From NCBI GenBank assembly GCA_001777015.1, contig MFCV01000047.1:1-44510 (forward strand): DNA of 44,510 bases. Reading direction: 5' to 3'. The notes beneath the pieces are model-generated. The model was not told the origin of the DNA. It made no database searches and worked only from the letters and a program-made list of their open reading frames with translations. Origin of the DNA: Candidatus Daviesbacteria bacterium RIFCSPHIGHO2_02_FULL_36_13. GTDB taxonomy: Bacteria > Patescibacteriota > Microgenomatia > Daviesbacterales > UBA10151. The translations under genes and the position numbers were made by a program. Positions 18,519 to 38,459 of this stretch are shown here, piece after piece (the first letter of the stretch is position 1; the number at the start of each line of letters is the position of its first letter).

Positions 18519-18519
18519 T

Positions 18520-19668
18520 TTAATAAGTTATTTGTTTACGAAGCAATCTATCATCTAAATCAATTTCAGATATAACCCTTACAATTCTCTCGCTGGCATG
18601 ACCATCACCCCAGATATTCTTAACTCTTTTAAGGCGTCTTAAATATTCCAAATCGTGTAGTGATTTTTCTATAGCCTTTACTATTTCTTTTTTTTTGTAA
18701 GTTACATTAATCACATTCCCACTTTGAGGCCTGCCATTTTGTCTATCCCCTACATTAACAACAGGTGTATGAAAAGAAGCTGATTCAATAATACCTGCGC
18801 TACTATTTCCTACCCAAACAGATGCATCCCTTTCTAAAGCTAGGAAGTATTTATGCTCTAAACTTTTAAATATATGGAATTTGGGATTATTTCTTTCCTG
18901 CTTAATCATTTCAATTATCGCCCTTCCTCCAGGATCAGAATTGGGGTAAATAACAACAACGGGCAAATTGAGAGCCTTAACAGCATCAACAGTTTGCTTC
19001 ATTTGTTTAGCCGCATCATCAATCTGTTCAGTAACTGAATGTTGCAATACCAATATATATTCATCTTCTAACGGAACTTTTAATTTTTGGAATAACTCCT
19101 CTTTTGTAGGAAGTACCTCATTCAAAATTACATCCAAAGCCGGAGCTCCAACTACATGAATTCTCCAGGCATCTTCTCCCAATCGTCTAATTCTCTCAGC
19201 AGAATCAACAGTTGTTGCAAAATGCAAATTTGAAAGCTTAGTAATTGCATGCCTCGCCACCTCATCAATAGTGAATGTTTTTTCTCCTCCATGAAGATGT
19301 ATAGTTGGAATTCCTAAATATGTAGATGCCAAAGCAGTACAAAGCATTTCTATTCTATCTCCCAGAATTAACATAAAATCTAATTTCTCTGAACCGATGC
19401 TTTTAACCAGTTGGTGCAAATAATCCCCGCTGAAACGAGCCATTCCTAATCGATCATTAGAGGTGAATACAGTCTTTATAACTTTCGTATTCGGAAATTC
19501 TTTCTTTACTTGATCAATTGTATATCCAAATTCCGGCATTAGATGCATACCCGTAGCAAAAAGGCGAAGTTTTAGTTTGTCACTCTTATCAATTGCTTTA
19601 AGAACAGGAGTCATTAATCCAAAATCCGCTCTAGTTCCACTAACATAAGCTATATTATTTATTTTCAT
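18520..19668 (-). CDS. UDP-N-acetylglucosamine 2-epimerase, hydrolysing (NeuC/LegG-like)
   Basis: YVSGTRADFGLMTPVLKAI; LGDRIEMLCTALASTYLGIPTIHLHGGE; VGNSSAGIIESASFHTPVVNVGDRQNGR. Confidence 0.93.
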   Translation of the reverse strand: MKINNIAYVSGTRADFGLMTPVLKAIDKSDKLKLRLFATGMHLMPEFGYTIDQVKKEFPNTKVIKTVFTSNDRLGMARFSGDYLHQLVKSIGSEKLDFMLILGDRIEMLCTALASTYLGIPTIHLHGGEKTFTIDEVARHAITKLSNLHFATTVDSAERIRRLGEDAWRIHVVGAPALDVILNEVLPTKEELFQKLKVPLEDEYILVLQHSVTEQIDDAAKQMKQTVDAVKALNLPVVVIYPNSDPGGRAIIEMIKQERNNPKFHIFKSLEHKYFLALERDASVWVGNSSAGIIESASFHTPVVNVGDRQNGRPQSGNVINVTYKKKEIVKAIEKSLHDLEYLRRLKRVKNIWGDGHASERIVRVISEIDLDDRLLRKQITY

Positions 19669-19735
19669 TTTAAATTTATGATCGTATTCTAGACGAAATC
19701 ACCAATTAAATCAAAAGATATAGGAGTTTTAAAAA

Positions 19736-20788
19736 TTATTCAAAATCTTCAAAAGATATTTGTTGGTCTGGAACAAGCTGTTTCTTTAATTTTTTACCTA
19801 AGAATTTTTCATATTGGGTCGGTGATACCCCATCACCAGGACGCTTTGCTTCAATATCATCTGCGGTTAAAATATGTCCTGCTTCCATATTCCTAACAGC
19901 GACAAGACTCTTTCTAACCGTACTTATCATAGAGTCAGTTTCATTTTTATTAGGAACTTTCTCTGCTCTTCCTAAAATTATCTTAGCTTTCCTAATAGCC
20001 TCAATTCGTTCTTTAAGTTCACTTGGTTCCGCGGAAGCAATATGATCAGGCCCTGGTAGATTTTTATCTATTGTAAAATGACATTCATAAATCTGCATTC
20101 CCATTGTTGCAGCCATAATAGCAACTTGAATACCTTGTGTATGATCAGAATATCCAACTGGTATATCCAGTTCATTCATCATAGTCTGCATTGCAAGTAA
20201 ATTTACCTCCTCAGGAGGACAAGGATAATTAGTAGTAGCATGCAACATAGCGACCTGATTATTTCCCTTTGATCTAACAAAGTTTATTGCATCTTTTACC
20301 TCTTCCATAGTGGCCATACCTGAACTTAGAATTATTGGCTTACCTGTTCTTGCAACCTTTTCCAGTAGAATATAATTTGTTAAATCTCCTGAACCTATTT
20401 TATAAGCTGGGACACCTAAAGATTCCAAGAAATCTACCGCTGCCTTACCCCCATGTGGAGTGGACATAAACAATATTTTTTTTTCAACACATCTCTTTAT
20501 TATGGGGGCATAAAATTCTTCAGGTAAAGCAACTCCTTCTAACATTTCTCTTTGACTCATTTCCTTTCCAATATTAGTCTTTTGGTAAGAAGCCATCTCA
20601 CCTGACTCTGTTACAAGATCACTCCCTGTAAAAGTTTGAAACTTCACCACATCAGCACCAGCATCTGCAGCCACATCTACAAGCTTTAAAGCAGTGTCCA
20701 GTTTTTGATTATGATTAACCCCGGCTTCTGCAATAATAAACACAGGTTTCCCTGTACCTATAGACTTGTTTCCAATCTGAATTAACAT
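19736..20788 (-). CDS. N-acetylneuraminate synthase family (NeuB/LegI-like)
   Basis: FIIAEAGVNHNQKLDTALKLVDVAADAGADVVKFQTF; YKIGSGDLTN; ECHFTIDKNLPGPDHIASAEP; C-terminal SAF domain. Confidence 0.95.
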   Translation of the reverse strand: MLIQIGNKSIGTGKPVFIIAEAGVNHNQKLDTALKLVDVAADAGADVVKFQTFTGSDLVTESGEMASYQKTNIGKEMSQREMLEGVALPEEFYAPIIKRCVEKKILFMSTPHGGKAAVDFLESLGVPAYKIGSGDLTNYILLEKVARTGKPIILSSGMATMEEVKDAINFVRSKGNNQVAMLHATTNYPCPPEEVNLLAMQTMMNELDIPVGYSDHTQGIQVAIMAATMGMQIYECHFTIDKNLPGPDHIASAEPSELKERIEAIRKAKIILGRAEKVPNKNETDSMISTVRKSLVAVRNMEAGHILTADDIEAKRPGDGVSPTQYEKFLGKKLKKQLVPDQQISFEDFE

Positions 20789-20789
20789 T

Positions 20790-21356
20790 TTATTTCCTTT
20801 TTAAATTTAGCTTTTTGATTACTTTTGCAGGAGCTCCGACAGCAATTGTCCTATCTGGTATACTTTTAGTAACTACACTACCTGCTCCTATTACTGAATT
20901 TTCCCCTATTGTCACTCCTGCCAAAATTATAACATTTGCACCAATCCAGCATCCTTTTTTTAAAATAACTTCCTTTACTTCATCATACCCTTGATCAATA
21001 AAGGGTTTATTTGGATTTGAAAATGTATGATTATTTGTATATATATGTACTCCAGGACCTAACATAACATCATCCTCAATAGTAATATCAGCACCATCAT
21101 CAGATGCTTCCGTTTGAATATATGAAAATGGCCTAATGATTACTCTTTTACCTATACTTATTTTTGAACAGCCAGTGGCGTATGAACCTGCTCTAAATTC
21201 TGCAGTTTCATCAAAATACTTAAATTTGCTTTTACATAAAGTAACCATCGTTGATTTAAAGAAAAGCTTCCAATAAGATGTTGGTATATCTGGACCAATC
21301 CTATCAGCATTGATCCAATATTTTATCCTTTGGAAAAATTCTAAAAAACTAATCAT
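20790..21356 (-). CDS. Left-handed beta-helix (WbbJ/LacA-like) acetyltransferase
   Basis: Hexapeptide repeats IEDDVMLGPGVHIYTNNHTF, ILKKGCWIGANVIILAGVTIGENSVIGAGSVVTKSIPDRTIAVGAPAKVIKK. Start reset from 21446 to ATG 21356, which leaves an 8 nt overlap with the upstream stop. Confidence 0.88.
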   Translation of the reverse strand: MISFLEFFQRIKYWINADRIGPDIPTSYWKLFFKSTMVTLCKSKFKYFDETAEFRAGSYATGCSKISIGKRVIIRPFSYIQTEASDDGADITIEDDVMLGPGVHIYTNNHTFSNPNKPFIDQGYDEVKEVILKKGCWIGANVIILAGVTIGENSVIGAGSVVTKSIPDRTIAVGAPAKVIKKLNLKRK

Positions 21357-22554
21357 CTGTACCTCCTCCCCAAACATTATGGGTAAGTCTCCATTCTCCT
21401 TTAACCTTTTTCCAAAGATGGGGAGAAGATTTTCTATAAAACTCAATAATTTCCCAGAATTCTTTCTCTGTAATACCTAAGTATTCTAAAAATTCAGCAA
21501 AGTATTTTTTTGGAAATTCACCATCATATCTTCTAACCAAAGCTATAGCTTCTTCCCTGCTAATATGCTTATTCCTAATTTCCATTTGAGCATCTCTTGA
21601 GGTTCTTCCCATTCCAAACTTAATATATCCCAAATACCAATGAAAACCATCAGTTTTATCATCTAAGCTGGCATATTTTGAATAAGTTCCTTCTGATCTT
21701 TCGGGATTTGCCTTAAATCCTGTGTGTTCTGCAGCATAATAAAAATTTTCCTGAGGGACCCATTTTTTATAAAAAGACATCCAATGCATTTCCGGGTTTA
21801 ATTTATTCATTTGCTGAAAAGCAGGCACTTTATAAATATCAAAAGCTCTATCCGATGCCTCATCTTTTGTAAAAATGCCTGACTTCAGCCCTGCCTTCAC
21901 TAATTCATCTACTCCGGAGCCTTTAAAATAATGCTCTTTAAAATCTTCAGGTGATTCATAAGGTTGATCAATATATTTTAAGGATCCTCCATATTCCACC
22001 TCACCATTTTCTCCGTAAAAAATTAGCTTGATGTTAAATTTTACTGCAGCATGGAAAGCAAAACTCTTTTGTCCGTAACCAAAGGGATCCCATGCATCTC
22101 CGTGTAACTCAAATGCCAGTCTAGATAATTTTCTATGAATTTTTCCGTTAGGTGTAAAAAGCAGGTTATCAAACCCCGAATCTTTGAATTTGATAAAATT
22201 ATTCCAACCTATATCAGTATATAAAAAGGGCGCCCAAGTAACTGTTAGCGGATGCATTCCATACTTATATTTTAAGAGGTGTGCTACATACCCACTATCC
22301 TTCCCGCCACTTACTGGAACAATACAATCATAGCTCCCATCTTTAGATCTGTGCTTCTTTAAAAGATCACCTAACATCTGTTCACGTTCATTCCAATCAA
22401 TCTCATGATGCTTTCTATAAGCATATTTGCAAGCACTACAAACTCCATCACTATCAAATGTGATTCTTGGTCTTTGATTTGAAACAACACATTTTTTACA
22501 AAATATGACTTCCTGGGGTCTATTCAATAATTGTTTGTCTAAGGTTTTTTTCAT
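21349..22554 (-). CDS. N-acetyl sugar amidotransferase (WbpG/PseA/PtmG-like)
   Basis: CKKCVVSNQRPRITFDSDGVCSAC zinc-like cysteines; PP-loop CIVPVSGGKDSGYVAHLLK. Confidence 0.92.
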   Translation of the reverse strand: MKKTLDKQLLNRPQEVIFCKKCVVSNQRPRITFDSDGVCSACKYAYRKHHEIDWNEREQMLGDLLKKHRSKDGSYDCIVPVSGGKDSGYVAHLLKYKYGMHPLTVTWAPFLYTDIGWNNFIKFKDSGFDNLLFTPNGKIHRKLSRLAFELHGDAWDPFGYGQKSFAFHAAVKFNIKLIFYGENGEVEYGGSLKYIDQPYESPEDFKEHYFKGSGVDELVKAGLKSGIFTKDEASDRAFDIYKVPAFQQMNKLNPEMHWMSFYKKWVPQENFYYAAEHTGFKANPERSEGTYSKYASLDDKTDGFHWYLGYIKFGMGRTSRDAQMEIRNKHISREEAIALVRRYDGEFPKKYFAEFLEYLGITEKEFWEIIEFYRKSSPHLWKKVKGEWRLTHNVWGGGTDD

Positions 22555-22574
22555 TAGTATTGCTTTTAACTTTC

Positions 22575-23228
22575 TTATTTTAAACTATTAGCAAAGTTTT
22601 GGTAAATCATTAACCCCTTGGGTCCACTTTTTTCAGGATGAAATTGTGCAGCAAATATATTTTTCGCTTTGACACTTGAACAATACTCTATTCCTTCATA
22701 ATTTGTATAGGAAGCTACTAATTTAGGATCTTCCGGTACAACATAGTATGAATGAACAAAATACATAAACTCATTATTTGATAAACCTTCCAAATATGAA
22801 TCCTTCCAAGCTTCCTCACTTTTAGAGTGATAAATTTTATTCCAGCCAATCTGAGGAACTTTAACAGCCTGATTGTTTTTATTTAAGGATGGGAATTTAA
22901 CAACTTTACCTTTAATAACATTCAAACCTTTATAGGCACCAAACTCCTCGCTTTCACTAAAAAGTAATTGCAAGCCTAAACAAACTCCTAAAAAAGGTTT
23001 TCCTCTGTCAATAAAGGATTTTATTGAAGTTATTAAATTTAGCTTTTGTAAATTTTCCATTGCGTCTCCAAATGCACCAACTCCTGGTAATATTGCCATT
23101 TGTGCATCTTCCAGATCTGATTTATCTGATGAAATAACTGCATCAAGACCCACAAAATCACAAGCATGCTTAACACTGTATAAATTGCTCATTTGGTAAT
23201 CAATTATTACAACTTTATTTTTACTCAT
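22575..23228 (-). CDS. HisH-like glutamine amidotransferase of the sugar amidation complex
   Basis: VVIIDYQMSNLYSVKHA; ILPGVGAFGDAM; FLGVCLGLQLLF nucleophile elbow; FAAQFHPEKSG. Confidence 0.93.
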   Translation of the reverse strand: MSKNKVVIIDYQMSNLYSVKHACDFVGLDAVISSDKSDLEDAQMAILPGVGAFGDAMENLQKLNLITSIKSFIDRGKPFLGVCLGLQLLFSESEEFGAYKGLNVIKGKVVKFPSLNKNNQAVKVPQIGWNKIYHSKSEEAWKDSYLEGLSNNEFMYFVHSYYVVPEDPKLVASYTNYEGIEYCSSVKAKNIFAAQFHPEKSGPKGLMIYQNFANSLK

Positions 23229-23229
23229 T

Positions 23230-24072
23230 TTAATTTCTACAATCGATATTTTCTTCTTGCAAATAATTTTTTATCTTTTCAATACTTGTCACTTCCACTT
23301 TAGAAAAACTTTGACCACTTTTTAAAAACTCTGTGTTTCCCTCTTCTCCGTTTTCCCTATCTTTATGAGTCTTTAAATAGTTGTAATGAAGTAACGAGGC
23401 TAAAGCCACCGCATCTGCTCCCCCATTTGATATTGCTTTATAAACATCCTCTTTTTTCCCGGCTCCACCACTCGCTATAACGGGTATTGAAACATTTTTT
23501 GAAATCATTTTTGTTAATTCCAAATCAAACCCTTCCCCTGTTCCATCCTTATCAATTGAAGTTAAAAGAATTTCCCCAGCACCAAGTTGTTCGGCTTTTT
23601 TTGCCCATCCTAGTACTTCAACTCCTGTATGCTCTCTTCCATTATCAGTAAAGGCAAGATAGCTTCCATCTTTCTGTTTTATTGCCTCTATTGTTACTGT
23701 TATTGTTGACGAACCAAAAATTCTTGAAGCTTCTTTAATGATTTGTGGGTTATTTATTGCAGCAGTATTTAACGACACTTTATCTGCTCCTGCCCTTAAA
23801 ACACTTCGGATATCGTCAATGGTTCTTAAACCCCCACCTACAGTGAGAGGGATAAATATTTCCCTTGCAGTCTTAGTAATAATTTCTTCTAAGCTATTAC
23901 GCCCAAAAAGACTTGCTACAACATCAATATAAATTAATTCATCAATACCGTTTTCATAGTAATATTTTGCGAATTCTTCAGGCTTTCCTAAAACCCTCAA
24001 GCCTTCTAGATGAATTCCTTTGACCAAATTAGGTCCTTTTATATCAAGCCTACCAATTATTCTGTGAATCAT
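23230..24072 (-). CDS. HisF-like (WbuZ-type) sugar amidation-associated TIM barrel
   Basis: HRIIGRLDIKGPNLVKGIHLEGLRVLG; GGGLRTIDDIRSVLRAGADKVSLNT; GAGEILLTSIDKDGTGEGFD; IPVIASGGAGKKED. Confidence 0.93.
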   Translation of the reverse strand: MIHRIIGRLDIKGPNLVKGIHLEGLRVLGKPEEFAKYYYENGIDELIYIDVVASLFGRNSLEEIITKTAREIFIPLTVGGGLRTIDDIRSVLRAGADKVSLNTAAINNPQIIKEASRIFGSSTITVTIEAIKQKDGSYLAFTDNGREHTGVEVLGWAKKAEQLGAGEILLTSIDKDGTGEGFDLELTKMISKNVSIPVIASGGAGKKEDVYKAISNGGADAVALASLLHYNYLKTHKDRENGEEGNTEFLKSGQSFSKVEVTSIEKIKNYLQEENIDCRN

Positions 24073-24078
24073 TGAGAT

Positions 24079-24867
24079 TTAAATTGCAGTCCACCCACCA
24101 TCAACCATTAATGTGATCCCAGTTATATACGATGCTGCATCTGATGCTAAAAATAAAGTAGCTGAAGCAATTTCTTCTGGTGTACCCATTCTGTTAAGGG
24201 GTGTATTTTTAGAATAATTTTTTACAAATACCTCATTTTGATTATCAAAAATTCCACCCGGACAAACAGTATTAACTCGAACATTAAATTTGCCAAAATA
24301 AGAAGCCAGGTATCGACTAAGATTAATTATCCCTCCCTTAATGGCAGCATATGCCATAGGAGATGTCATGGTTGTACCCTCATAAACTGCAAAATTATTT
24401 CCGACTACTCCATATATAGAACCAAAGTTAATTAGACTCCCTCCCTTTTGATCTTTCATAATTAAACAAACTTTTCTGCTAATCCAGGAATAACTATTAA
24501 GATGCGCATCTACATTTTTTTGCCAGGATTCTAATTTTAGATCTTCTAGCTTATCACTCCAATCTCTAGTTCTAGGATATGCAGCATTTATCCAAACATC
24601 AATTCTTCCATACTTTGAACAAAGTTTATCAATATTCTTATCAATATTTTTTAAATCTGTAATATCAAATTCTTCAAACTCAACATCTCCACCTATCTTT
24701 TTTAAATCCAAGGTAAGTTTTTGCCCCTTAGATTTATCAATATCTAAAATAACAACATTCGCTTTTGCCTCAGAAAATGCTTTGGTAATTTCCGTCCCTA
24801 AAAGACCAACTCCTCCAGTTATAAAAACAGTTTTTCCGCTCATCGAAAATTTATTCATATATTTCAT
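24079..24867 (-). CDS. SDR oxidoreductase (PtmA-like)
   Basis: GKTVFITGGVGLLGTEITKAFSEAKANVVILD; YAAIKGGIINLSRYLASYFG; RVNTVCPGGI; FLASDAASYITGITLMVDGGWTA. Confidence 0.9.
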   Translation of the reverse strand: MKYMNKFSMSGKTVFITGGVGLLGTEITKAFSEAKANVVILDIDKSKGQKLTLDLKKIGGDVEFEEFDITDLKNIDKNIDKLCSKYGRIDVWINAAYPRTRDWSDKLEDLKLESWQKNVDAHLNSYSWISRKVCLIMKDQKGGSLINFGSIYGVVGNNFAVYEGTTMTSPMAYAAIKGGIINLSRYLASYFGKFNVRVNTVCPGGIFDNQNEVFVKNYSKNTPLNRMGTPEEIASATLFLASDAASYITGITLMVDGGWTAI

Positions 24868-25574
24868 AGGCTTATTATATTCTCTTTTACTAAAAATTCT
24901 ATAAATTTAAAATCCATCTCAGAATCAATATCAATTCTTGAGATTTCATCCATTAAGTAAATAATAGAATTATCGCTAACTGGTTTATTATTGTTTTCAT
25001 CAAGTAAATATTCTCTATCATATATATAAATTGAGGCATTCATATCATACACTTTTGGAGCATCCTGACGACGAGAAAAACCACCACTTGATTTACTATA
25101 CTGGGCCTTTCCTTCTGAATCCTCTTCCACCATATTAAAATATGGATTTCTGTGGGCTTTTACTACACTAAAAAGTGTCTTTGGTTTTTTTGACAAAAAT
25201 AAATTAAAAGCTTTTTCTAAATCTTCAACTTTTCTAAGAGGAGATGTAGTATCCAAATCCATCACTGCGTCAAATTTCTTTTTATATATATCTTCACAAA
25301 ATTTTAACGCATGTCTGATTACCCCAACTTTACCAGCAGTATCTGTTGCAAGTTCGCCGGGTCTTAAAAAAGGAACTTCAGCTCCAAATTCTTTAGCAAT
25401 TGTTGCTATTTCTTTTGAATCTGTGCTGACAACTATATGCTGAGCTTTTCCCCATTCTTTAGCCTGTTTAATCGTGTAATATATTAAAGGTTTACCAGCC
25501 AGATCTTTGATATTTTTTCCTTTTACCCCTTTAGAACCTCCCCTTGCGCAAATTGTTAAAAGTAAATTATTCAT
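24864..25574 (-). CDS. Acylneuraminate cytidylyltransferase-like (NeuA/LegF/PtmB)
   Basis: LLLTICARGGSKGVKGKNIKDLAGKPLIYYTIKQA; MDLDTTSPLRKVEDLEKAF. Confidence 0.93.
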   Translation of the reverse strand: MNNLLLTICARGGSKGVKGKNIKDLAGKPLIYYTIKQAKEWGKAQHIVVSTDSKEIATIAKEFGAEVPFLRPGELATDTAGKVGVIRHALKFCEDIYKKKFDAVMDLDTTSPLRKVEDLEKAFNLFLSKKPKTLFSVVKAHRNPYFNMVEEDSEGKAQYSKSSGGFSRRQDAPKVYDMNASIYIYDREYLLDENNNKPVSDNSIIYLMDEISRIDIDSEMDFKFIEFLVKENIISL

Positions 25575-27439: not shown

Positions 27440-28510
27440 ATGTTATCTGATGTTACTATTTTAGTTCCCAGTTTTAATCGCCACAGACAGCTAAAAAGAC
27501 TCTTGGAATATTATAAAGGTTTAAAAACTAACATCCTTGTTGGTGATTCAACCCTAACTGCCTTCCCTGACGCAGGTAAATATAAAAACCTAAACTACTT
27601 TCATTATCCAAATTATCCTTATGCCACAAAATTAGCCTTAATGTATAAAAAAATTAAAACAAAATATGTATTATTTTGTGCAGATGATGATTTTGTTATT
27701 CCAAATTCTGTTAAGGAATGTGTTAATTTTTTAGATAAAAATCCTGACTACGTAGCAGCTCATGGACACTATGTCTTTTTTGAAGATAAAGGCAAAGATA
27801 AAATCCCAGTTTATCCATTCTATCTACACGCAATAGATTTAGATGTAAAATCCAACCTACCATCTGAAAGACTATATTCAATTCTAGCCAATTATATGCA
27901 ATTACTTTACGCTGTAACCAAAACTTCTGTGGCAAGAAAAGTTTTTAATCAATTAGAGAAAAACCGAAAAATTCAAAATGATACGTTGGTTGAATTATTT
28001 CAAGCCATAATGATTTCTATTGAAGGCAAATCCAAAACCCTACCCAGTCTTTATTGTGCCAGAGAAGTAACTCCTGGTTCTGCCAGAACCCGTATCGCCT
28101 CTTTAGAAAATATTGTTACAGAGCCAAAATACAAAAAAGAATACAGTTATTGGTTAAAGGTAATCATTGATTATCTTATGAAAAAACAAAAAATATCAAA
28201 ACCCAACGCTGAGGCTTCTATTAAAGCAGGTGTTAATAATTACTTAAAAGGCTTACTTTTTACCATACCTATTATTAATTTCCACCTATACCCTCTTCAA
28301 ATTCAAAGGTTTATTATTAAAGCCACTTTTGGGTATGCAAAAAAGATTCGTGACTTGCTCATAGCACCCAAAGACTACGCCAATTTATCTAAACACGCTT
28401 TTTCTACTCCTCACGCAAAAAAAGAGTTTGAGAAAATCAAACTGTATATTAAGAAATATGGAGAAAAGTCCTTACTACTTTTTTTAGTCTATCGAGATGT
28501 TTTAAAGTAA
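27440..28510 (+). CDS. GT-A glycosyltransferase (TIGR00180-like)
   Basis: VTILVPSFNRHRQLKRLLEYY; YVLFCADDDFVIPNSVKECVNFL. Track start 27431; ATG 27440 preferred because a TGATAAAAT box ends 7 nt upstream of it. Confidence 0.82.
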   Translation: MLSDVTILVPSFNRHRQLKRLLEYYKGLKTNILVGDSTLTAFPDAGKYKNLNYFHYPNYPYATKLALMYKKIKTKYVLFCADDDFVIPNSVKECVNFLDKNPDYVAAHGHYVFFEDKGKDKIPVYPFYLHAIDLDVKSNLPSERLYSILANYMQLLYAVTKTSVARKVFNQLEKNRKIQNDTLVELFQAIMISIEGKSKTLPSLYCAREVTPGSARTRIASLENIVTEPKYKKEYSYWLKVIIDYLMKKQKISKPNAEASIKAGVNNYLKGLLFTIPIINFHLYPLQIQRFIIKATFGYAKKIRDLLIAPKDYANLSKHAFSTPHAKKEFEKIKLYIKKYGEKSLLLFLVYRDVLK

Positions 28511-29663
28511 GTCCCTGGTGTACACCTATAATCACTCCCTGCTCCATAATATAATCTGCAACAGGATAACTTTTCTGAGAATCCCTATGTGGGATATTCT
28601 TAAATCCCGGCTGTTTTAAGATATTTCCAGTAAAGATTGGTCTAGTTTGTATATTCTCCTTTTCCAAAAATGTTACAAATTCTAATCTAGAAAAGGGTGC
28701 TTCTTTTTTTATGGTCAATGGGAAAACCTGCCACTGGGCTAACGCATTTTCATTCATTTCTGGAACTATAAAATGGTCTGAATATTGACTAAAAAAATCG
28801 AATAATATTTTATAATTTCTCTCTCTAAGTTTTACAAATCCCTTTAATTTATCAAGTTGGGCATTACCAAAAGCTGCTCCAATCTCCATTGGCAAAAGAT
28901 TGTAGGCAACCTCGTCAAAGATAAATTTTCCATCATATGGAATCCCGTCAAGTTTTCTTCCAAAACGCACTTCAATTTTTTCCGATTCTGCAAATATGGC
29001 AGATGTTCTCCCCCAACCCCTTAATACTTTTGCTCTATCTCTTAATTTCTCATTATTAACCATTAACATTCCACCATTCCCACCAGCAGTAATAACATGA
29101 GATCCATAAAAACTAGTTGTTGTTATATCGGAATATGTACCTGTCGGCTTTCCCTTATAAAAACCAACTATAGCATCGCAGGAATCTTCTATAAAAATTA
29201 GATTATGCTTTTTTGCAATATCTCTTAATCTATCCATATCAGGAACATTTCCCATAAGGATTGGGATTAATATTGCCTTAGTCCTTTTAGAAATAGCATT
29301 TTCCACCTTATCAACATTGATAAAATACTTCCCCTCAACAACATCAACAAAAACCGGAATTAAACCTTTTTGAATTAACGGAGCTATAGTTGTTGAAAAT
29401 GTCAGAATTGGTGTAATAATTTCTGAACCAGGAGGAAGCTTCATAAGCTCAATTGCTAAAAGATTTGCAGAGGAGCCTGAATTCACCATAATTCCGTATT
29501 TTTTTCCAAATAACTTCGCAACTCTTTCCTCAAACTCTGCAACTTCACGGCCCATTATAGTCCTGTGTTCTTTTATAACATTCAGTACTCTTTCTTCCTC
29601 TTCTTTGCCATGAACAGCAAGAGCATGGGATATTCGCAGTGGATTTTTGTTATTACTTTTCAT
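28449..29663 (-). CDS. DegT/StrS-fold PLP protein of the NDP-4-keto-6-deoxyhexose 3-dehydratase class (RfbH/ColD-like)
   Basis: Fold motifs MVNSGSSANLLAIELMKLPPGSEIITP and EDSCDAIVGFYKGKPTGT; PLP lysine replaced by His in SFYGSHVITAGGNGGM; LRGWGR...RFGRKLDGIPYDGKFIFDEVAYNLLPMEIGAAFGNAQLDKL aligns with the E1/RfbH region. Start reset from 29687 to ATG 29663. Confidence 0.85.
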   Translation of the reverse strand: MKSNNKNPLRISHALAVHGKEEEERVLNVIKEHRTIMGREVAEFEERVAKLFGKKYGIMVNSGSSANLLAIELMKLPPGSEIITPILTFSTTIAPLIQKGLIPVFVDVVEGKYFINVDKVENAISKRTKAILIPILMGNVPDMDRLRDIAKKHNLIFIEDSCDAIVGFYKGKPTGTYSDITTTSFYGSHVITAGGNGGMLMVNNEKLRDRAKVLRGWGRTSAIFAESEKIEVRFGRKLDGIPYDGKFIFDEVAYNLLPMEIGAAFGNAQLDKLKGFVKLRERNYKILFDFFSQYSDHFIVPEMNENALAQWQVFPLTIKKEAPFSRLEFVTFLEKENIQTRPIFTGNILKQPGFKNIPHRDSQKSYPVADYIMEQGVIIGVHQGLTLKHLDRLKKVVRTFLHIS

Positions 29664-29672
29664 ATTCAAAAG

Positions 29673-29701
29673 AATATACATTACCACCTGATAAATGTAA
29701 A
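29673..29701 (-). promoter_or_regulatory. Promoter TTTACA-N17-TATATT for the 3-dehydratase-like gene
   Basis: -10 complement 29673-29678, -35 complement 29696-29701; ATG at 29663, 9 nt after the -10. Confidence 0.6.
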
Positions 29702-29726
29702 TGATGACTGTGATATTATCATCAAT

Positions 29727-30560
29727 ATGTTTAAACCAAATTATGTTGCTTTAGCCATAATTACTTATTATCCAAAATGGTATAAAGGAAAATTAAAAAG
29801 TATTGCAAACACAGATAAGGTAAGAGGTGATTTAGCGCTAAAATTTATTAAAAAAGCTGTCTATAAAAAATATCAGGTAATTGTAGTCGAGAGCAAAAGC
29901 TCAAAAGAATTCCGTAATGAATTATCAAATTTTAAATTGATAAACATTGTAAAAAGAATAAGCCTTAAATCCTCACCAGCCAGACGACAAGCTTTTAGGG
30001 CTGCCTCAAAACTTCCGCAAGTTAAGGTTATTATTGCGACCGAACCTGAGAAGGTATCATTAATTGATAATATTGTGGATATAGCACATCCTATCTTGAG
30101 CAATGAAGCAGATATTGTGATTCCAAAAAGAGAGGATAATCTTTTTAGAAAAACTTATCCTGATTACATGTATAAATCCGAAACTAAAGCTAATCAACTC
30201 TACAATAAATTATTAAAACTTCATAAAGTTTTTAAGAATAAATATGAGCAGATAGATATTTTCTTCGGACCAAAAGCTATTAAGAATGACTCAAAAATAT
30301 TAAATCTCTTTTTTAAACAGCCATTAAAAATAACACAGTTTGACCCAGAAATGTATTCAAATACGCTATTCTTTCCAGTAGTTTTAGCTTTGAGAAAAGG
30401 GTTTAAAGTTAAAAATATCCAAATTCCTTTTAAGTACCCCAAGATACAGAAAAAAAATGAATCGAGAGGGGCCAGAAATTTTTTTATTCAAAAAAGGCGT
30501 AATCAAAGTATACAAATGTTAAGTGAGTTAAAATATCTTTTAAGTAGTTTTACCTTGTAA
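29727..30560 (+). CDS. Probable GT-A-fold glycosyltransferase (mannosylglycerate-synthase-like)
   Basis: KPNYVALAIITYYPKWYKGKLKSI; GDLALKFIKKAVYKKYQVIVVES; IATEPEKVSLIDNI; EADIVIPKR. Track start 29565 overlaps the divergent gene; ATG 29727 preferred. Confidence 0.5.
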   Translation: MFKPNYVALAIITYYPKWYKGKLKSIANTDKVRGDLALKFIKKAVYKKYQVIVVESKSSKEFRNELSNFKLINIVKRISLKSSPARRQAFRAASKLPQVKVIIATEPEKVSLIDNIVDIAHPILSNEADIVIPKREDNLFRKTYPDYMYKSETKANQLYNKLLKLHKVFKNKYEQIDIFFGPKAIKNDSKILNLFFKQPLKITQFDPEMYSNTLFFPVVLALRKGFKVKNIQIPFKYPKIQKKNESRGARNFFIQKRRNQSIQMLSELKYLLSSFTL

Positions 30561-30582
30561 AAAATATTTATTCATATATAAT
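30555..30582 (+). promoter_or_regulatory. Sigma70-like promoter TTGTAA-N16-TATAAT upstream of hddA-like gene
   Basis: -35 at 30555-30560, -10 TATAAT at 30577-30582, ATG at 30590 (7 nt after the -10). Confidence 0.65.
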
Positions 30583-30589
30583 ACGAAAG

Positions 30590-31597
30590 ATGATTATTGT
30601 CAGAGCTCCTCTTAGGATAAGTTTTGTTGGCGGAGGTTCAGATTTACCCGATTTTTATCACATGTCTCCAGGGAAAGTTATTTCAGCCACTATTGATAAA
30701 TATGTTTATGTTGCAATCAATCCTGCACCTCTTCTAAAAGGAATCTCTGCACGATATTCCATCAACGAAAATGTTAAAAGAGTTATTGATTTAAAAAATG
30801 ACCGTATCAGAGAAACAATGCTTCATTTAGGAGTTGAAGATAATATGGAAATTGGTACTTTCTCTCACATGCCAGTAGGCACAGGTTTAGGAGGATCATC
30901 CAGTTTTGCTGTCACTTTAGTTAAAGGATTATCTACATATTTGGGCCAAAGACTTGATAAAAAAGATATTGCAGAAATTGCCTGCAAAATAGAGATTGAT
31001 ATATTAAAAGAGCCAATAGGGAAACAGGATCAGTATGCTGCAACTTTTGGAGGGTTTAATACTTTCCAATTCAATTCTGATGAGTCAGTTGATGTAGAAC
31101 CGATTCTACTCGATTATAAAAAAAGCCTAGATCTAGAAAATCATATGTTAGTCTTTTTTACAGGTATTCTAAGAAAAGCTTCTTCTGTATTAAAAGAACA
31201 AAAAACAAATATCCCTCAAAAAATGGATACATTAAAATCTATGGTGGACTTAGTAGAAGTATTTAAAAAGAAACTGATAAGAGGGGACTTTGAAGGATTA
31301 GGCAAATTGCTTCACGAAAACTGGCTTAAAAAAAAGAAACTTGCCTCAAATGTATCTAATTCCGAGATAGACCAACTCTACACTGTAGGTATGAGAAATG
31401 GGGCATGGGGAGGTAAAGTTTTAGGAGCAGGTGGGGGAGGATGTATTCTATTTTTGGCTCCTTTCAAAAAGAAGGAAATTATTAAAGAGGCAGTTCACGA
31501 AATGGCAAAAAAACTTGGGTTATCTGATTTTAAACAAGTTCCAATAAAATTTGTGCACTCTGGCGTAGAAATAGTTTCAAGCAGTTTATTTAATTAA
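30590..31597 (+). CDS. hddA: GHMP kinase, D-glycero-D-manno-heptose 7-phosphate kinase-like (HddA)
   Basis: IIVRAPLRISFVGGGSDLPDFY; HMPVGTGLGGSSSFAVTLVKGL; GAGGGGCILFLAP. Confidence 0.9.
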   Translation: MIIVRAPLRISFVGGGSDLPDFYHMSPGKVISATIDKYVYVAINPAPLLKGISARYSINENVKRVIDLKNDRIRETMLHLGVEDNMEIGTFSHMPVGTGLGGSSSFAVTLVKGLSTYLGQRLDKKDIAEIACKIEIDILKEPIGKQDQYAATFGGFNTFQFNSDESVDVEPILLDYKKSLDLENHMLVFFTGILRKASSVLKEQKTNIPQKMDTLKSMVDLVEVFKKKLIRGDFEGLGKLLHENWLKKKKLASNVSNSEIDQLYTVGMRNGAWGGKVLGAGGGGCILFLAPFKKKEIIKEAVHEMAKKLGLSDFKQVPIKFVHSGVEIVSSSLFN

Positions 31598-31603
31598 GAT
31601 AGT

Positions 31604-32209
31604 ATGGAAAAACATATAAAAAGTTATATTAAAAAAAGCGTTAAGTTACTGCAAAATCTGCCTCATAAAGAAATCGCTAAGGCAATGAATCTTCTACAAG
31701 CTACCTACGAACGGGATGGCAGAATTTATGTATTCGGCAATGGCGGCTCATTGGCTCTAGCAACACACTGGGTAGCAGATTTCAACAAAACCGTTTTTTC
31801 ACACCATTTAGATAAAAACACCAGACGTTTTCAGGCAATCCGTCTTCCCACAACCGAAGAGGAGTTAACAGCTTGGGCAAATGATGTGGGATTTGATATG
31901 GTCTTTGCTGGTCCTTTACGAAATTACCTAAGAGACGGAGATCTTGTTATAGCAATTTCATCTTCTGGGAATTCTCCCAATATAATTAAAGCTGTTGAGT
32001 TAGCAAAAGAATACAAAATTCCGGTAATCGGTGTTTCTGGTTTTGAAGGTGGGGTACTAAATGAATTAGCTGATGTTAAAATTCTAGTAAATACTGACAA
32101 AGGAGAATATGAATTAGTAGAAGGAATTCATGCGGTAATACTACACCTTATTACTAAATACTTTAAAAATTACTTTGATTATTTGGATAAGAATATTTCA
32201 ATTAAGTGA
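31604..32209 (+). CDS. gmhA: Phosphoheptose isomerase-like SIS protein (GmhA)
   Basis: RIYVFGNGGSLALATHWVADFNK; LVIAISSSGNSPNIIKAVELAKE; 201 aa. Confidence 0.87.
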   Translation: MEKHIKSYIKKSVKLLQNLPHKEIAKAMNLLQATYERDGRIYVFGNGGSLALATHWVADFNKTVFSHHLDKNTRRFQAIRLPTTEEELTAWANDVGFDMVFAGPLRNYLRDGDLVIAISSSGNSPNIIKAVELAKEYKIPVIGVSGFEGGVLNELADVKILVNTDKGEYELVEGIHAVILHLITKYFKNYFDYLDKNISIK

Positions 32210-33082
32210 GGCTTCAATTGTCTTTCTAAGACCTTCCTCTATATTTATCCTAGGTTTCCATCCAAATTTTTGAATCTTTGATATATCTGCATAGGCATAT
32301 GCTAAAGAATCCAGATTTTTCTTTTTTGTTTTTTTATATTTCTTCTGCTTACTAAAAGAATTGAAGATTTTTTCAATAATTGTTTGTACACTTGTTAACT
32401 GTCCTGACCCAATATTATAAACTCCTCCCTTTTTGCATTTCAAAAGGAGTGTACAAATTGCATCAGCAACATCTTCCACATAAACAAAATCATTCTGAGC
32501 ATATAGATTTCTTATTTCTGCCTTTTTATTTTCCTTTCCACACTTTATTAAATATGGGATAAGAGAATCTCTCTTTAAACCTGGGCCGTATACATAAAAT
32601 AATCTAATCCAGGTAAAGCTAATATCTCTTTCTTTAGCTATCTCTGAACCTAACCAATTTAAAGCATTTTTTGCAGCAGTAAATGCATTAAAGGGCTTAA
32701 TTTGCATATCTTCAGATAACTTTCCGCTTTGATCTCCGTATTCCCATAAAGTTCCTGTTGCTAAAATTTTTTTACATCCAATTTCAGCTAAAAGCTGTAC
32801 TAGCTCTAAGCTGAAATTGAGATTCTTAATACTATTTTTGCTGCTATAGTCAGGTATCCCTTCCCATGCAAGATGTATAGCCGCATCTGGCATGAATTTT
32901 TTTAGTTCATCCTTCCACTGATTTACATCAGACAAATCACCTTTCACGAAAAGGGTGTTCTTTGAGTTTTCTGAAACATGAAGATTCCTAGTTAAGATAA
33001 GCAGCTTATTTTTTTCGCTTTTGAGTTTTGAAATGACGAATTTACCTATAAATCCAGTGCCGCCTGTAACAAATATTTTCAC
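32198..33082 (-). CDS. NAD(P)-dependent epimerase/4-reductase (extended SDR)
   Basis: MKIFVTGGTGFIGKFVISKLK; IHLAWEGIPDYSS; RLFYVYGPGLKRDSLIPYLIK; VYNIGSGQLTSVQTI. Confidence 0.85.
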   Translation of the reverse strand: MKIFVTGGTGFIGKFVISKLKSEKNKLLILTRNLHVSENSKNTLFVKGDLSDVNQWKDELKKFMPDAAIHLAWEGIPDYSSKNSIKNLNFSLELVQLLAEIGCKKILATGTLWEYGDQSGKLSEDMQIKPFNAFTAAKNALNWLGSEIAKERDISFTWIRLFYVYGPGLKRDSLIPYLIKCGKENKKAEIRNLYAQNDFVYVEDVADAICTLLLKCKKGGVYNIGSGQLTSVQTIIEKIFNSFSKQKKYKKTKKKNLDSLAYAYADISKIQKFGWKPRINIEEGLRKTIEASLN

Positions 33083-33642
33083 TTTATTTTAAACTTTTGT
33101 TTTTTTAGAAATTGTTTAAAACTTTGAGCTTCTAAATCTCTTTCAGAAATAAAACTGGGATTCTTAACTGGCCAAGGTATTTTTAAATCAGGATCATTCC
33201 ATATAATGTTATCATAACTTTCAGGAGTAAAGTATTCATCCATTTTATATAAAACATGACAATTATTGGTTAGTGTACACAAACAAGACCCAATACCTTT
33301 AGGTATATACAGTAAGCTATCTTTCTTATCTGATAACACTATTTGAACCCATTGACCGAAAGTTTTAGATTTAGATCTTAAATCCAAAATAGTAAAAAGT
33401 ACTTCTCCCTGAAGAACTCTTATTAATTTAGTTTCCGCGTATGGCGGGTATTGAAAATGAAATCCCCGTATGGTCCCTTTCTTCTTGCTAAGAGAATGGC
33501 TTTCCTGCACCCATTTAGTTTTTAACCCTAATTTTTTAAATATTTTATCGTCAAAGGTTCTCATGAAAAAACCTCTGGGATCAATCTTCGGTTCTAGTTG
33601 AATTTCAAATAATCCTTTTATTTTTTCTTCTTTTGCTATCAT
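33079..33642 (-). CDS. RfbC/RmlC-like sugar nucleotide 3,5-epimerase
   Basis: DPRGFFMRTFDDKIF; KKGTIRGFHFQYPPYAETKLIRVLQGEVLFTILDLRSKSKTFGQW; WNDPDLKIPWPVK. Confidence 0.9.
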   Translation of the reverse strand: MIAKEEKIKGLFEIQLEPKIDPRGFFMRTFDDKIFKKLGLKTKWVQESHSLSKKKGTIRGFHFQYPPYAETKLIRVLQGEVLFTILDLRSKSKTFGQWVQIVLSDKKDSLLYIPKGIGSCLCTLTNNCHVLYKMDEYFTPESYDNIIWNDPDLKIPWPVKNPSFISERDLEAQSFKQFLKKQKFKIK

Positions 33643-34844
33643 GATTTTGTAATATCTTTTACTATGTCTAAAAGATTCCCTTCTGGTTTTATTAAAATTG
33701 TTTTACAACCAGCAGCATCTCCAGCTTCCTTATCCCGTGTATCATCTCCTACAAAGATTACTTTTGTCAAATCTACAAAATGATCTCTACTTGCAAAGTA
33801 TAATAATCCCGGTTTTGGTTTTCTGCAAATACAACCATCATCCCAATTATGAAGACAGGAATATATTCCTTCTATTTTTCCGCCGTTACTCTTTAAAACT
33901 TTTAGCATTTTTTTATGTATTAATTCAAGGTCTTTTTTAGTCATTGCTCCCCTAGCAATGCCTGGTTGATTTGAAATGATGAATATTTTATATCCTGATT
34001 TAGTTAAAAGTTTTATTGCTTCTATAGAACCTGGTAAGAATTCAAACTCCTCCCATTTTTTAACATAATCCGCTTTAAGAGGCCTCTTATTTATAACTCC
34101 ATCCCTATCTAGAAACATAACTTTTTTAGGGGTAAGAAATTTTTCTGTTAATTTAACCCTTTTCATATCCCCAATTGAATAATATTTTTGATTAGTTAAA
34201 TATCCTGATAATTTTCTCTTTGGAATTAAACTTTGTAAAACCCTTGTTTCAAATTTAGAATTTGATTTAGGTAAAAAGTCTAAAACTTTTTTATTTACTA
34301 TAAAAAATCCAATATCTACCCCATTTAAGTCCTTCTGTGATCTAGTGCTGTCATATTTAATAGCGTATCCATTTTCATCAATAAATAAATTACTCCTCGT
34401 AGATTTGTCTAAATTAGAATAGGCAGTTATTAAAACATCCGATGGATGACCGTTGTAAAAATCTATTAATTTTTTCAGCTGCAGCGGCCAATAATTATCA
34501 CAATACATTAAAAGAAAATGATCATTTAGTAGCTCTTCGGCATTCTTTATCCTTAGTCCACTTTCATTTTCCTGCCCATTCTCATCTAAAAAGGGGGTTT
34601 GCGAGTATTTAATTTTTATACCAAACTTTTTACCATCACCAAAATATTCATTAATTTTTTCACCAAGAAAACCCGTTAAAATTACAACTTCCCTTATCCC
34701 ATTATCTTTAAGTAAATTAATAAGGTGCTCTAAAAATGGCTTTTTATTAACCATTACAAGTGGTTTAGGATTTTTTAAAGTAAACGGGAGAAGTCTTTTC
34801 CCTTGGCCGCCTGCCAGGATGACCGCTTGTTTAATATTTATCAT
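33639..34844 (-). CDS. Fused heptose-1-phosphate nucleotidyltransferase (HddC-like) + heptose-1,7-bisphosphate phosphatase (GmhB-like)
   Basis: N-terminal AVILAGGQGKRLLPFTLKNPKPLVMVNKKPFLEHLI; C-terminal HAD motifs FLDRDGVINKRP, IISNQPGIARG, YSCLHNWDDGCICRKPKPGLL (zinc loop), VGDDTRDKEAG. Start reset from 34898 to ATG 34844. Confidence 0.92.
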   Translation of the reverse strand: MINIKQAVILAGGQGKRLLPFTLKNPKPLVMVNKKPFLEHLINLLKDNGIREVVILTGFLGEKINEYFGDGKKFGIKIKYSQTPFLDENGQENESGLRIKNAEELLNDHFLLMYCDNYWPLQLKKLIDFYNGHPSDVLITAYSNLDKSTRSNLFIDENGYAIKYDSTRSQKDLNGVDIGFFIVNKKVLDFLPKSNSKFETRVLQSLIPKRKLSGYLTNQKYYSIGDMKRVKLTEKFLTPKKVMFLDRDGVINKRPLKADYVKKWEEFEFLPGSIEAIKLLTKSGYKIFIISNQPGIARGAMTKKDLELIHKKMLKVLKSNGGKIEGIYSCLHNWDDGCICRKPKPGLLYFASRDHFVDLTKVIFVGDDTRDKEAGDAAGCKTILIKPEGNLLDIVKDITKS

Positions 34845-35814
34845 TCTTAATAAAATCTCTCCAATATTCAAGTGTGTCCTCAAGAACTGTATTAACATCT
34901 ATCTTTGGTTTCCATCCAGTTAATTTTCTAAATTTTGAGGTATCCCCTATTAATCTAGGAACCGAGGTGGGTCTTACGAACTGAGGATCCTGCACTATTT
35001 TAACTTTACCCACCTTAGACATTTTTATTAACATCCCTAGAATTTCACGGTATGAATAAATATGATCCTTCTCATCAGAACCTATTAGATATAGTTCACC
35101 AGGCTTGCAGTGAGTTATTGCAAGCCAATAAGCTTCAACTAAATCCTTAATATGGGTAAAATTTCTTCTATCTTCTATGTGTCCTACTCTGATAATTGGC
35201 TTTTGTTTTCCCGCCTCTATTCGGGCAATTTGGTAAGCATACCAAGGAATTCCAAAAACATTATCTCTTCTTGGACCTTCATGGTTAAATGCCCTGGTTC
35301 TAATTACATTAAGCCCATATGATCTAAAATAAACATATCCGATATAATCCTGTGCAACTTTGCTCACAGCATATGGATTAACCGGCCTAATAAGGGTATT
35401 TTCATTTATTGGTATTTCATTTTCAGGTATATCACCATATTCCTCTCCTGATCCAGGTATAAAAAATCTTGGATTTATATTTGCCCCCCGAATTGCTTCA
35501 AGAATATTTACAGTTCCTTTAAAATTCACATCCATATAGTGGGATGGATGATCCCAAGAAGGACTTACAAAACTTTCAGCTGCTAAATGAAAAACCCAGT
35601 CAGGATTTATTTTTTTTATGATTTTTCTTATTCCAATTGGGTCAGTTAAATCACAATCAAAAAATTCTACTTTGTCTAATAGATGTGCTACATTCCTAAG
35701 TCTTGATAAGTTCCACCTTTTTAATCCATAAACTTTAACACCTTTTTTCAGTGCATAATCTGCCAGATGAGATCCTACAAATCCAGTAATTCCTGTTATT
35801 AATATTTTTTTCAT
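34831..35814 (-). CDS. GDP-mannose/GDP-heptose 4,6-dehydratase-like (GMD/DmhA)
   Basis: KILITGITGFVGSHLADYALKKGVKVYGLKRW; HLAAESFVSPSWDHPSHYMDVNFKGTVNILEAIR; RTRAFNHEGPRRDNVF; VGHIEDRRNFTHIKDLVEAYWL. Confidence 0.9.
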   Translation of the reverse strand: MKKILITGITGFVGSHLADYALKKGVKVYGLKRWNLSRLRNVAHLLDKVEFFDCDLTDPIGIRKIIKKINPDWVFHLAAESFVSPSWDHPSHYMDVNFKGTVNILEAIRGANINPRFFIPGSGEEYGDIPENEIPINENTLIRPVNPYAVSKVAQDYIGYVYFRSYGLNVIRTRAFNHEGPRRDNVFGIPWYAYQIARIEAGKQKPIIRVGHIEDRRNFTHIKDLVEAYWLAITHCKPGELYLIGSDEKDHIYSYREILGMLIKMSKVGKVKIVQDPQFVRPTSVPRLIGDTSKFRKLTGWKPKIDVNTVLEDTLEYWRDFIKNDKY

Positions 35815-36594: not shown

Positions 36595-37374
36595 ATGAAA
36601 GTAGTTATTCTTAGTGGGGGCTTGGGTTATAGACTTAAAGAAGAGACAGAATTTAAACCAAAACCAATGGTATCCATTGGTAATAAACCTATGCTTTGGC
36701 ATATCATGAAAATTTATTCCCACTATGGATTTAATGAATTCATCATTGCTTTAGGTTATAAGGGTGACTATATTAAAGATTATTTTTTGAATCAAAGATA
36801 TTTTGCTGACAATTTTACTATTCATACTAAAAGTGGTTATACGCAACTTCACAGAAATAAGAATGATAAAGAAAAAGATGACTTTAAAATTACCTTTGTA
36901 GATACTGGTTTAGAAACATTACCTGGGGAAAGAATTCTCAAAATCAAAGATTTTATACCAGAGTCTGATGAAGATTTTATGGTTACATATGGAGATGGTG
37001 TTGCAGATATAAATATTGCAGATCTTGTTAAATTTCATAAAAAAAAGGGGACTATTGGAACAGTGACTGGAGTTCATCCAAGAAGCAGGTATGGTTTACT
37101 TGCAGTTGATGAAAAACAACTCGTTTGGCAATTCTTAGAAAAACCCGTATTATCTGACTGGATAAATGGAGGTTTTATGATTTTTAAAAGATCAGTTTTT
37201 AAATACTTCCGCGAAGGAGAATATGAACATCCAGCCATTAAAAGGCTGATAAAGGATAACCAGCTCTCCATATTTACTCACGAAGGATTTTGGCATTCTA
37301 TGGATACTTACTCTGATGTGGATAGTTTAAATCAACTATGGATAGAAAATCCGAAGTGGAAGGTGTGGAAATAA
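36595..37374 (+). CDS. rfbF: Glucose-1-phosphate cytidylyltransferase (RfbF-like)
   Basis: MKVVILSGGLGYRLKEETEFKPKPMVSIGNKPMLWHIMKIYSHYGFNEFIIALGYKGDYIKDYF; GGFMIFKR; FTHEGFWHSMDTYSDVDSLNQLW. Confidence 0.95.
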   Translation: MKVVILSGGLGYRLKEETEFKPKPMVSIGNKPMLWHIMKIYSHYGFNEFIIALGYKGDYIKDYFLNQRYFADNFTIHTKSGYTQLHRNKNDKEKDDFKITFVDTGLETLPGERILKIKDFIPESDEDFMVTYGDGVADINIADLVKFHKKKGTIGTVTGVHPRSRYGLLAVDEKQLVWQFLEKPVLSDWINGGFMIFKRSVFKYFREGEYEHPAIKRLIKDNQLSIFTHEGFWHSMDTYSDVDSLNQLWIENPKWKVWK

Positions 37375-38459
37375 TGGCTCTGAGCAGAGACGTAGAGGAA
37401 GAAGATTTAAAATATATTCACAAAAAAGCAAAAGAGGAATTTGAGGCTCTGTCTAACCATACACTCTTATTCACTGGAGCTAACGGATTCTTAGGTTATT
37501 ACTTTATCAAATCTATTATTGCCTGGAATAATCTTTATCCAGAAAAAAAAATTCAAGTCTATGCACTGGATATTTTCCTTAAAGGTATTCCGGAGTGGCT
37601 ATCTAAAAAAGGCATACAAGTAGTTAAATCTGATGTTACAAAATATAAACTAGCCAAAAGTAAAAAATTCGACTATATTATCCATGCAGCCTCCATTGCA
37701 TCCCCTATTTTTTACCGCCAATATCCAATAGAAACAATCAATGCAAATATTCAAGGCCTTATGAATGTTTTAGAATATATGGTAAAGAAAAGTAAGTCTA
37801 AAGAGGAGGTTAAAGGATTATTATTTTTCTCATCCTCCGAAATATATGGCGATCCCCTAGAAGGAAATATTCCAACTCCCGAAACCTATAGAGGAAATGT
37901 TTCTTGTACCGGGCCAAGGGCTTGTTATGATGAATCCAAAAGATTTGGGGAAACACTTTGTGTAAATTATTCAAGGGTTCACAACCTTCCCATAAAAATA
38001 GCTAGGCCCTTTAATAATTACGGGCCAGGATTAAGAATTACAGATGGAAGAGTTATTCCAGATTTTGCAAATAATATTTTATCTAATAAAAATATCACTC
38101 TTCTTTCCGAAGGATCCCCAACCCGCACATTTTGCTATATAACAGATGCAATTGTTGGATATTTAAAAGTATTAATAAAAGGCAAAAAGGCAGAAAGTTA
38201 TAATATCGGTGTAGAAAATCCTGAAATTTCCATTATTGAGCTGGCAGAAAAAATGAAAAGCATAGCTTTAAAACATTTTGGATATTCTGGAAAAATTATT
38301 AAAGAAAAGAGTGCTGATCAAAATTATCTGACAGATAATCCGAATCGTAGATGCCCCCAAATAGCTAAAGCCCAAAAAGACTTAGATTATAATCCTGAAA
38401 TCACTTTAGATGCAGGACTTAAAAATACAATGCTCTGGTATAAGGATATATATAAATGA
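37374..38459 (+). CDS. UXS-like extended SDR (UDP-glucuronate decarboxylase family)
   Basis: LLFTGANGFLGYYFIKSII; IIHAASIASPIFYRQYPIETINANIQGLMNVL; FFSSSEIYGDP; ACYDESKRFGETL; ARPFNNYGPGLRITDGRVIPDF; NPNRRCPQIAKAQKDLDYNPE. Start reset to ATG 37374 (TAATG overlap with rfbF). Confidence 0.85.
   Translation: MALSRDVEEEDLKYIHKKAKEEFEALSNHTLLFTGANGFLGYYFIKSIIAWNNLYPEKKIQVYALDIFLKGIPEWLSKKGIQVVKSDVTKYKLAKSKKFDYIIHAASIASPIFYRQYPIETINANIQGLMNVLEYMVKKSKSKEEVKGLLFFSSSEIYGDPLEGNIPTPETYRGNVSCTGPRACYDESKRFGETLCVNYSRVHNLPIKIARPFNNYGPGLRITDGRVIPDFANNILSNKNITLLSEGSPTRTFCYITDAIVGYLKVLIKGKKAESYNIGVENPEISIIELAEKMKSIALKHFGYSGKIIKEKSADQNYLTDNPNRRCPQIAKAQKDLDYNPEITLDAGLKNTMLWYKDIYK

Follow-up and report, generated by a model that had tools for sequence, protein, structure and literature searches.

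A predicted NDP-4-keto-6-deoxysugar 3-dehydratase related to RfbH/E1 but lacking its [2Fe-2S] ligand set, encoded beside heptose genes in a Daviesbacteria genome

The gene and its active-site residues

The window (the whole stretch of 44,510 nucleotides of Candidatus Daviesbacteria contig MFCV01000047.1 that was analysed) contains a gene for a PLP enzyme with a histidine at the position of the PLP lysine. The question raised by this locus is whether the product is an aminotransferase or a sugar 3-dehydratase, and whether a dehydratase of this kind would depend on a [2Fe-2S] cluster, as E1/RfbH/AscC (CDP-6-deoxy-L-threo-D-glycero-4-hexulose-3-dehydrase, 3BCX) does, or work without one, as ColD (GDP-4-keto-6-deoxy-D-mannose 3-dehydratase, 2GMS) does. 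The interval was found to hold a single ORF and to be a real gene, running from 29663 to 28449; the strand, absent from the preliminary description, is supplied in Table 1 together with the coordinates of the neighbouring features. An alternative GTG start at 29687, on the same strand and with the same end, would give a protein of 412 aa.

Table 1. Features of the dehydratase gene and its surroundings (positions of the window)
Feature	Position	Strand	Remarks
Predicted Fe-S-free, His-type NDP-4-keto-6-deoxysugar 3-dehydratase (window enzyme)	28449..29663	minus	404 aa from ATG
GWGRTSAIFAESEKIEVRFGRKLDGIPYDGKFIFDEVAYNL, counterpart of the E1 [2Fe-2S] loop region	28896..29018	minus	residues 216-256; no cysteines; coordinates from residue numbers
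FYGSH motif	29097..29111	minus	residues 185-189; coordinates computed from residue numbers
Uncharacterised protein, no Pfam match	29727..30560	plus	63 bp from the dehydratase gene and divergently oriented
HddA-like D-glycero-D-manno-heptose 7-phosphate kinase (GHMP kinase)	30590..31597	plus	
GmhA-like phosphoheptose isomerase	31604..32209	plus	SIS_2/SIS domain; role inferred from neighbours
SDR, candidate C4-reductase	32198..33082	minus	role inferred
RmlC-type 3,5- or 5-epimerase	33079..33642	minus	
Nucleotidyltransferase-GmhB phosphatase fusion (HddC-GmhB-like)	33639..34898	minus	
GMD/RMD-superfamily SDR, candidate GDP-heptose 4,6-dehydratase	34831..35814	minus	dehydratase inferred from NHEGPRR motif
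RfbF-like glucose-1-phosphate cytidylyltransferase	36595..37374	plus	277 bits vs cutoff 300; pathway membership uncertain

By alignment with E1 and ColD, the PLP-lysine position was assigned to His189 (404-aa numbering), the counterpart of H220 in E1 and of H188 in ColD, and the reading FYGSH against FYPNK in the sibling aminotransferase at 16624, made in the preliminary description, was borne out (ITTTSFYGSHVITAGGNGG in the window enzyme and GTFAFYPNKQMTTGEGG in the sibling, respectively). An Asn at the catalytic position of ColD was set aside as an artefact of the sequence source, 3B8X, which is the H188N structure. An active-site Lys was also searched for elsewhere, and no clade-specific Lys was found to take over from the His.

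The cluster ligands of E1 are C193, C251, C253 and C261 (numbered by the 3BCX alignment), and the corresponding positions of the window enzyme read C, S, I and I, respectively. The segment listed in Table 1 had been quoted earlier exactly as translated, with the statement that every [2Fe-2S] cysteine is missing; this holds for the C251, C253 and C261 positions, but the C193 position still carries a Cys, lying in EDSCDA. The alignment of the Fe-S-free clade to which the window enzyme belongs (86 rows, defined below) showed Cys at this position in 55 rows and Ala in 31, and ColD and the Lys-type sibling carry the Cys as well; it is therefore not regarded as a conserved ligand. The other three of the four cysteines of RfbH/E1 were absent throughout the 86 relatives, with no Cys within the Fe-S segment in any row and with Ser, without exception, at the place of C251; all 86 rows carried the catalytic His where the Lys-type DegT/DnrJ/EryC1/StrS enzymes have the Lys that forms the PLP aldimine. 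Since the pattern holds in 86 of 86 rows, the combination of His and missing Fe-S cysteines is not due to chance, and the proposed independence of Fe-S chemistry is supported by the absence of three ligands across the whole clade.

The residue before the His is Ser both in the window enzyme (Ser188) and in ColD (S187), and Ala in RfbH. The clade shares M59, P85, L136, S188, P258, Q303 and H382 with ColD against RfbH, and F89, D163, Y186, W217, R219, R233, Y243, D244, K246 and others with RfbH against ColD; the backbone is therefore RfbH-like and the residue beside the His ColD-like. The loop after the His (AGGNGG) is one residue longer than its counterpart in E1 (MGEGG).

Relatives, phylogeny and fold

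At least 538 stretches encoding relatives were found by a profile scan, and the best 80 loci among them were retained; single-sequence pattern scans of genome contigs and viral contigs gave no relatives, whereas the profile scan did find them. The Fe-S-free clade was defined by His and Ser, and no best match from the kept loci needed exclusion for missing either. Its hosts are CPR bacteria, Bacteroidota, Pseudomonadota, Acidobacteriota, Gemmatimonadota and archaea (Nitrososphaerota and Micrarchaeota), and it is apparently a large, unstudied branch.

Trees were constructed from 138 rows and then, more carefully, from 58 rows. The His-type enzymes were split from the Lys-type ones in both trees (100/100 in the 58-row tree), so the window enzyme stands apart from the Lys-type aminotransferases. 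A clade with the motif STYxAH branched first, followed by ColD and then by RfbH with the Fe-S-free clade and its three nearest relatives (L008-L010); in the 58-row tree the Fe-S-free clade and these three grouped with RfbH at 100/96. Both RfbH (100/100) and the Fe-S-free clade (100/99) were monophyletic, and the window enzyme was placed as sister to the RfbH clade, outside it. A forced union with ColD, to which the identity is about 30%, was rejected at a cost of 14.5 log-likelihood units (p-AU 0.012).

The Fe-S cysteines were confined to RfbH and one long-branch row (L027). They are explained more simply by one gain, on the RfbH side, and ancestral absence of the cluster from the clade would be more parsimonious than loss. 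It is unlikely that the clade lost an ancestral cluster: the Cys kept at the C193 position in most rows would fit such a loss, but it is equally a common feature of ColD and the Lys-type enzymes, and the distribution of the cysteines asks for one gain only.

Further His-type proteins were observed. The protein of L027 (1195-2352) is divergent; its E1 Fe-S segment has four cysteines in another spacing (CDCVVC...C), its residue at the place of C193 is Ala, and it may hold Fe-S in a different arrangement. A His-type clade with STYxAHxxVTGVGG and without Fe-S cysteines (L022, L024, L025, L026, L028, L029 and the second PLP protein of L037) branches outside ColD and RfbH, and its member in L037 comes directly after a member of the Fe-S-free clade.

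The window enzyme was matched by Pfam PF01041 (DegT_DnrJ_EryC1) with 264 bits (gathering score, 19.8), and its best model was NCBIfam RfbH (NF011936) with 341.2 bits, under the cutoff of 423; the same model matched 36 of 36 sampled members of the clade. With phmmer against PDB, E1 was the first match (1e-73), followed by ColD (1e-49) and then by Lys-type enzymes. An AlphaFold2 model built from 36 clade sequences (pLDDT 91.7, pTM 0.90) matched the fold of E1 first and that of ColD next. The RfbH-like backbone proposed in the preliminary description thus agrees with sequence match, fold match and tree.

The window enzyme is not an ordinary aminotransferase. Automatic annotation labels its relatives DegT/DnrJ/EryC1/StrS aminotransferases, and some transamination is known for SpnQ (PMC8987622), but the reading of the window enzyme as an aminotransferase, or as an inactive homologue, in spite of its His has very little chance, given the invariant His, the full separation from all Lys-type rows, an active site strongly conserved over many phyla and an E1-like gene context.

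Gene context and likely substrate

Genes near the clade members were compared with those near RfbH and Lys-type enzymes. The cytidylyltransferase gene rfbF was found near 52 of 82 clade loci, and rfbF together with rfbG (CDP-glucose 4,6-dehydratase) near 40 of 82; in the controls rfbF was near 10 of 15 RfbH loci and 1 of 20 Lys-type aminotransferase loci. The difference between clade and Lys-type loci gave a Fisher p of 1.5e-6. This value is indicative only, because the Lys-type control loci come exclusively from CPR and the clade loci from a mixture of hosts, and because related loci do not count as independent observations. RmlC-type epimerase, YerE-like TPP enzyme and split transketolase genes were near 20, 17 and 10 of the 82 clade loci, respectively. 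The order was rfbF-rfbG-gene-C-methyltransferase-reductase on Palleronia and Roseibium plasmids and rfbF-rfbG-RmlC-...-RmlD-like-gene in Flavobacteriales, the latter being the ascarylose gene set without E3. Yersiniose A, a branched sugar, is made by YerE, and enzymes like YerE are believed to join acyl donors to deoxy-keto sugars (PMC12247030). These rfbF/rfbG, RmlC/RmlD and YerE-like contexts imply that the clade gene performs the E1 step. The ColD relatives examined were mostly accompanied by gmd and fcl.

Split transketolase pairs stood beside the dehydratase gene in CPR loci (L038, L039, L041, L042, L058, L066 and others) and may extend 3,6-dideoxy-4-keto sugars by two-carbon branches.

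In the Daviesbacteria genome a three-gene unit that includes HddA and GmhA runs divergently from the gene, and a minus-strand unit with the GMD/RMD-like SDR, the HddC-GmhB fusion, RmlC and an SDR lies nearby. The first gene of the divergent unit encodes a protein with distant relatives near two other clade members. The genes for GDP-3,6-dideoxy-heptose in Campylobacter jejuni HS:5 are hddC, gmhA, hddA and those for 4,6-dehydratase, C3-dehydratase, epimerase and reductase (PMC10440746), and candidates for all seven of these functions were found in 28449-35814, the one for the 4,6-dehydratase being a possible reductase. The closest match of this SDR was the GDP-4-keto-6-deoxymannose reductase 2pk3 (230 bits), followed by the C. 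jejuni GDP-heptose 4,6-dehydratase 7us5 (186 bits), and its NHEGPRR motif resembles those of dehydratases; because 2pk3 outscores 7us5, its putative role as 4,6-dehydratase is uncertain. The C3-dehydratase of C. jejuni is 62-67% identical to the GDP-sugar 3-dehydratases of E. coli and Yersinia (PMC10440746) and is therefore ColD-type, so that the HS:5/HS:11 enzyme and the window enzyme share the predicted pathway step and, by candidate assignments, the set of seven functions but belong with ColD and beside RfbH, respectively.

In the genome (963,675 bases, estimated 96% complete), rfbG was not found by genome-wide searches, the best score being 57 bits, for an RmlB. The gene thus stands next to a GDP-heptose gene set in a genome without rfbG, which makes GDP-3,6-dideoxy-4-keto-heptose the most likely product, and GDP-6-deoxy-4-keto-heptose, at about even probability, would be the foremost candidate substrate in this organism; the heptose suggestion of the preliminary description is thus favoured by the locus. 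Heptose gene linkage is kept in two other loci, one with the gene, RmlC, an SDR (70% identical), HddC/GmhB and an SDR in one row (L044) and one in which GmhA-HddA-HddC/GmhB adjoin the clade gene (L040), although two or more heptose genes were found in only 3 of 82 clade loci and most members lie in CDP-sugar loci.

The same type of enzyme might, somewhat less probably, act on another NDP-4-keto-6-deoxysugar in this organism, namely GDP-4-keto-6-deoxymannose (GMD homologue, 309 bits, on contig C45), dTDP-4-keto-6-deoxyglucose (rmlABCD, including RmlB, also on C45) or CDP-4-keto-6-deoxyglucose via RfbF and an unrecognised dehydratase. The rfbF/rfbG neighbours of the majority of clade members, the RfbF gene 7 kb from the window enzyme gene and a clade member with rfbF/rfbG beside relatives of the C-methyltransferase (76%) and Gfo (47%) of the window (L062) speak for such a substrate; the missing rfbG, the position of the GMD and RmlB genes on a different contig and the direct neighbourhood of the heptose genes, with their linkage kept in L040 and L044, speak against it. 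The C-methyltransferase/Gfo cassette of the window was also considered as a partner of the enzyme, and this was weakened by a second C-methyltransferase/SDR/Gfo set farther along on the contig with no dehydratase beside it.

The two sets, at 37338-42109 of the window and at 45100-48334 of contig C47 (L122), each comprise a C-methyltransferase, a UXS-like SDR and a Gfo/Idh oxidoreductase, and suggest C-methylated sugars; in the former the C-methyltransferase has Methyltransf_13/14, and RfbF and UDP-glucose dehydrogenase are also present. Elsewhere in the window, NeuB-like, NeuC-like, PseB-like, HisF/HisH-like and amidotransferase-like genes at 15642-24867 were read by eye as a nonulosonic acid pathway of the legionaminic or pseudaminic type in this CPR host, followed by a CMP-sugar-synthetase-like gene at 24864-25574. 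The ORF at 589-1908 appeared by eye to be a cytidylyltransferase-type N-terminus fused to a phosphoenolpyruvate mutase-like domain, which may serve phosphonate synthesis.

Predicted reaction and its meaning

In E1, ColD and SpnQ, PMP is joined as a Schiff base to C4 of the sugar, and proton removal by a His lets the C3 hydroxyl depart. From there E1 and SpnQ depend on electrons delivered via [2Fe-2S], while ColD hydrolyses the intermediate and glutamate regenerates PMP; the ligand cysteines of E1 form a four-cysteine motif (PMC8987622). SpnQ, the dTDP-sugar 3-dehydratase of spinosyn biosynthesis, resembles the window enzyme in the PMP-dependent C3 deoxygenation predicted for the latter, but has ferredoxin or flavodoxin as its partner and carries the [2Fe-2S] motif (PMC8987622). 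The biochemistry of a clade member or a characterised Fe-S-free relative of E1 was not found among the open-access papers searched.

With the cluster absent, the window enzyme would most plausibly follow the route of ColD. On this route L-glutamate, as the expected amino donor, would convert PLP to PMP, the PMP would condense with the sugar at its C4 ketone to give a Schiff base, His189 would take the C4' proton and the C3 hydroxyl would depart; hydrolysis of the intermediate as in ColD would then yield the 3,6-dideoxy-4-keto sugar together with ammonia and PLP, and an E3 reductase would not be needed. The adjacent heptose genes would supply GDP-6-deoxy-4-keto-heptose, and the GDP-3,6-dideoxy-heptose made from it would enter a surface polysaccharide.

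An E1-like outcome, in which an enzyme without its own Fe-S cluster eliminates the C3 hydroxyl by PMP and then receives electrons from an external donor, is very improbable. The sister relation to RfbH and the residues shared with it around the former Fe-S loop (W217, R219, Y243, D244 and K246) are in keeping with it, but three of the four ligands are missing throughout the clade, a search around the clade members examined gave no E3-like gene, there is no apparent site for a redox cofactor and ColD demonstrates that hydrolysis suffices. The missing adjacent E3 is weak as evidence for Fe-S independence, since RfbI-like reductases seldom adjoin even RfbH (of about 15 RfbH loci, just 2 had one nearby). 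A Fer2 ferredoxin was not found by search of the genome of the window enzyme, and its absence was dropped as evidence because 9 of 11 CPR genomes with Fe-S RfbH also have none.

The best reading is therefore an Fe-S-independent 3-dehydratase acting like ColD on an RfbH backbone. That the window enzyme is an Fe-S-free 3-dehydratase is held with good confidence, and the fuller statement, a PLP/PMP-dependent NDP-4-keto-6-deoxysugar 3-dehydratase in a distinct clade sister to RfbH/E1, without [2Fe-2S] and most likely with a heptose substrate here, is considered probable.

With roughly balanced chances, the clade may represent an unrecognised family of 3-dehydratases in bacteria and archaea that would perform the E1 reaction on CDP- or GDP-sugars without Fe-S or reductase; the [2Fe-2S] cluster of E1/RfbH would then be a later addition to an older, glutamate-driven hydrolytic enzyme, and a CPR branch would make 3,6-dideoxy-heptoses independently of the ColD-type enzymes. 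If so, a large group of genes annotated as aminotransferases would be Fe-S-free 3-dehydratases, and many loci read as producers of amino sugars would make 3-deoxy sugars. The two chemistries would become directly comparable on a nearly identical protein, the origin of the iron-sulfur cluster of E1 would become testable, and the clade would be a source of reductase-free enzymes for the synthesis of 3,6-dideoxy sugars.
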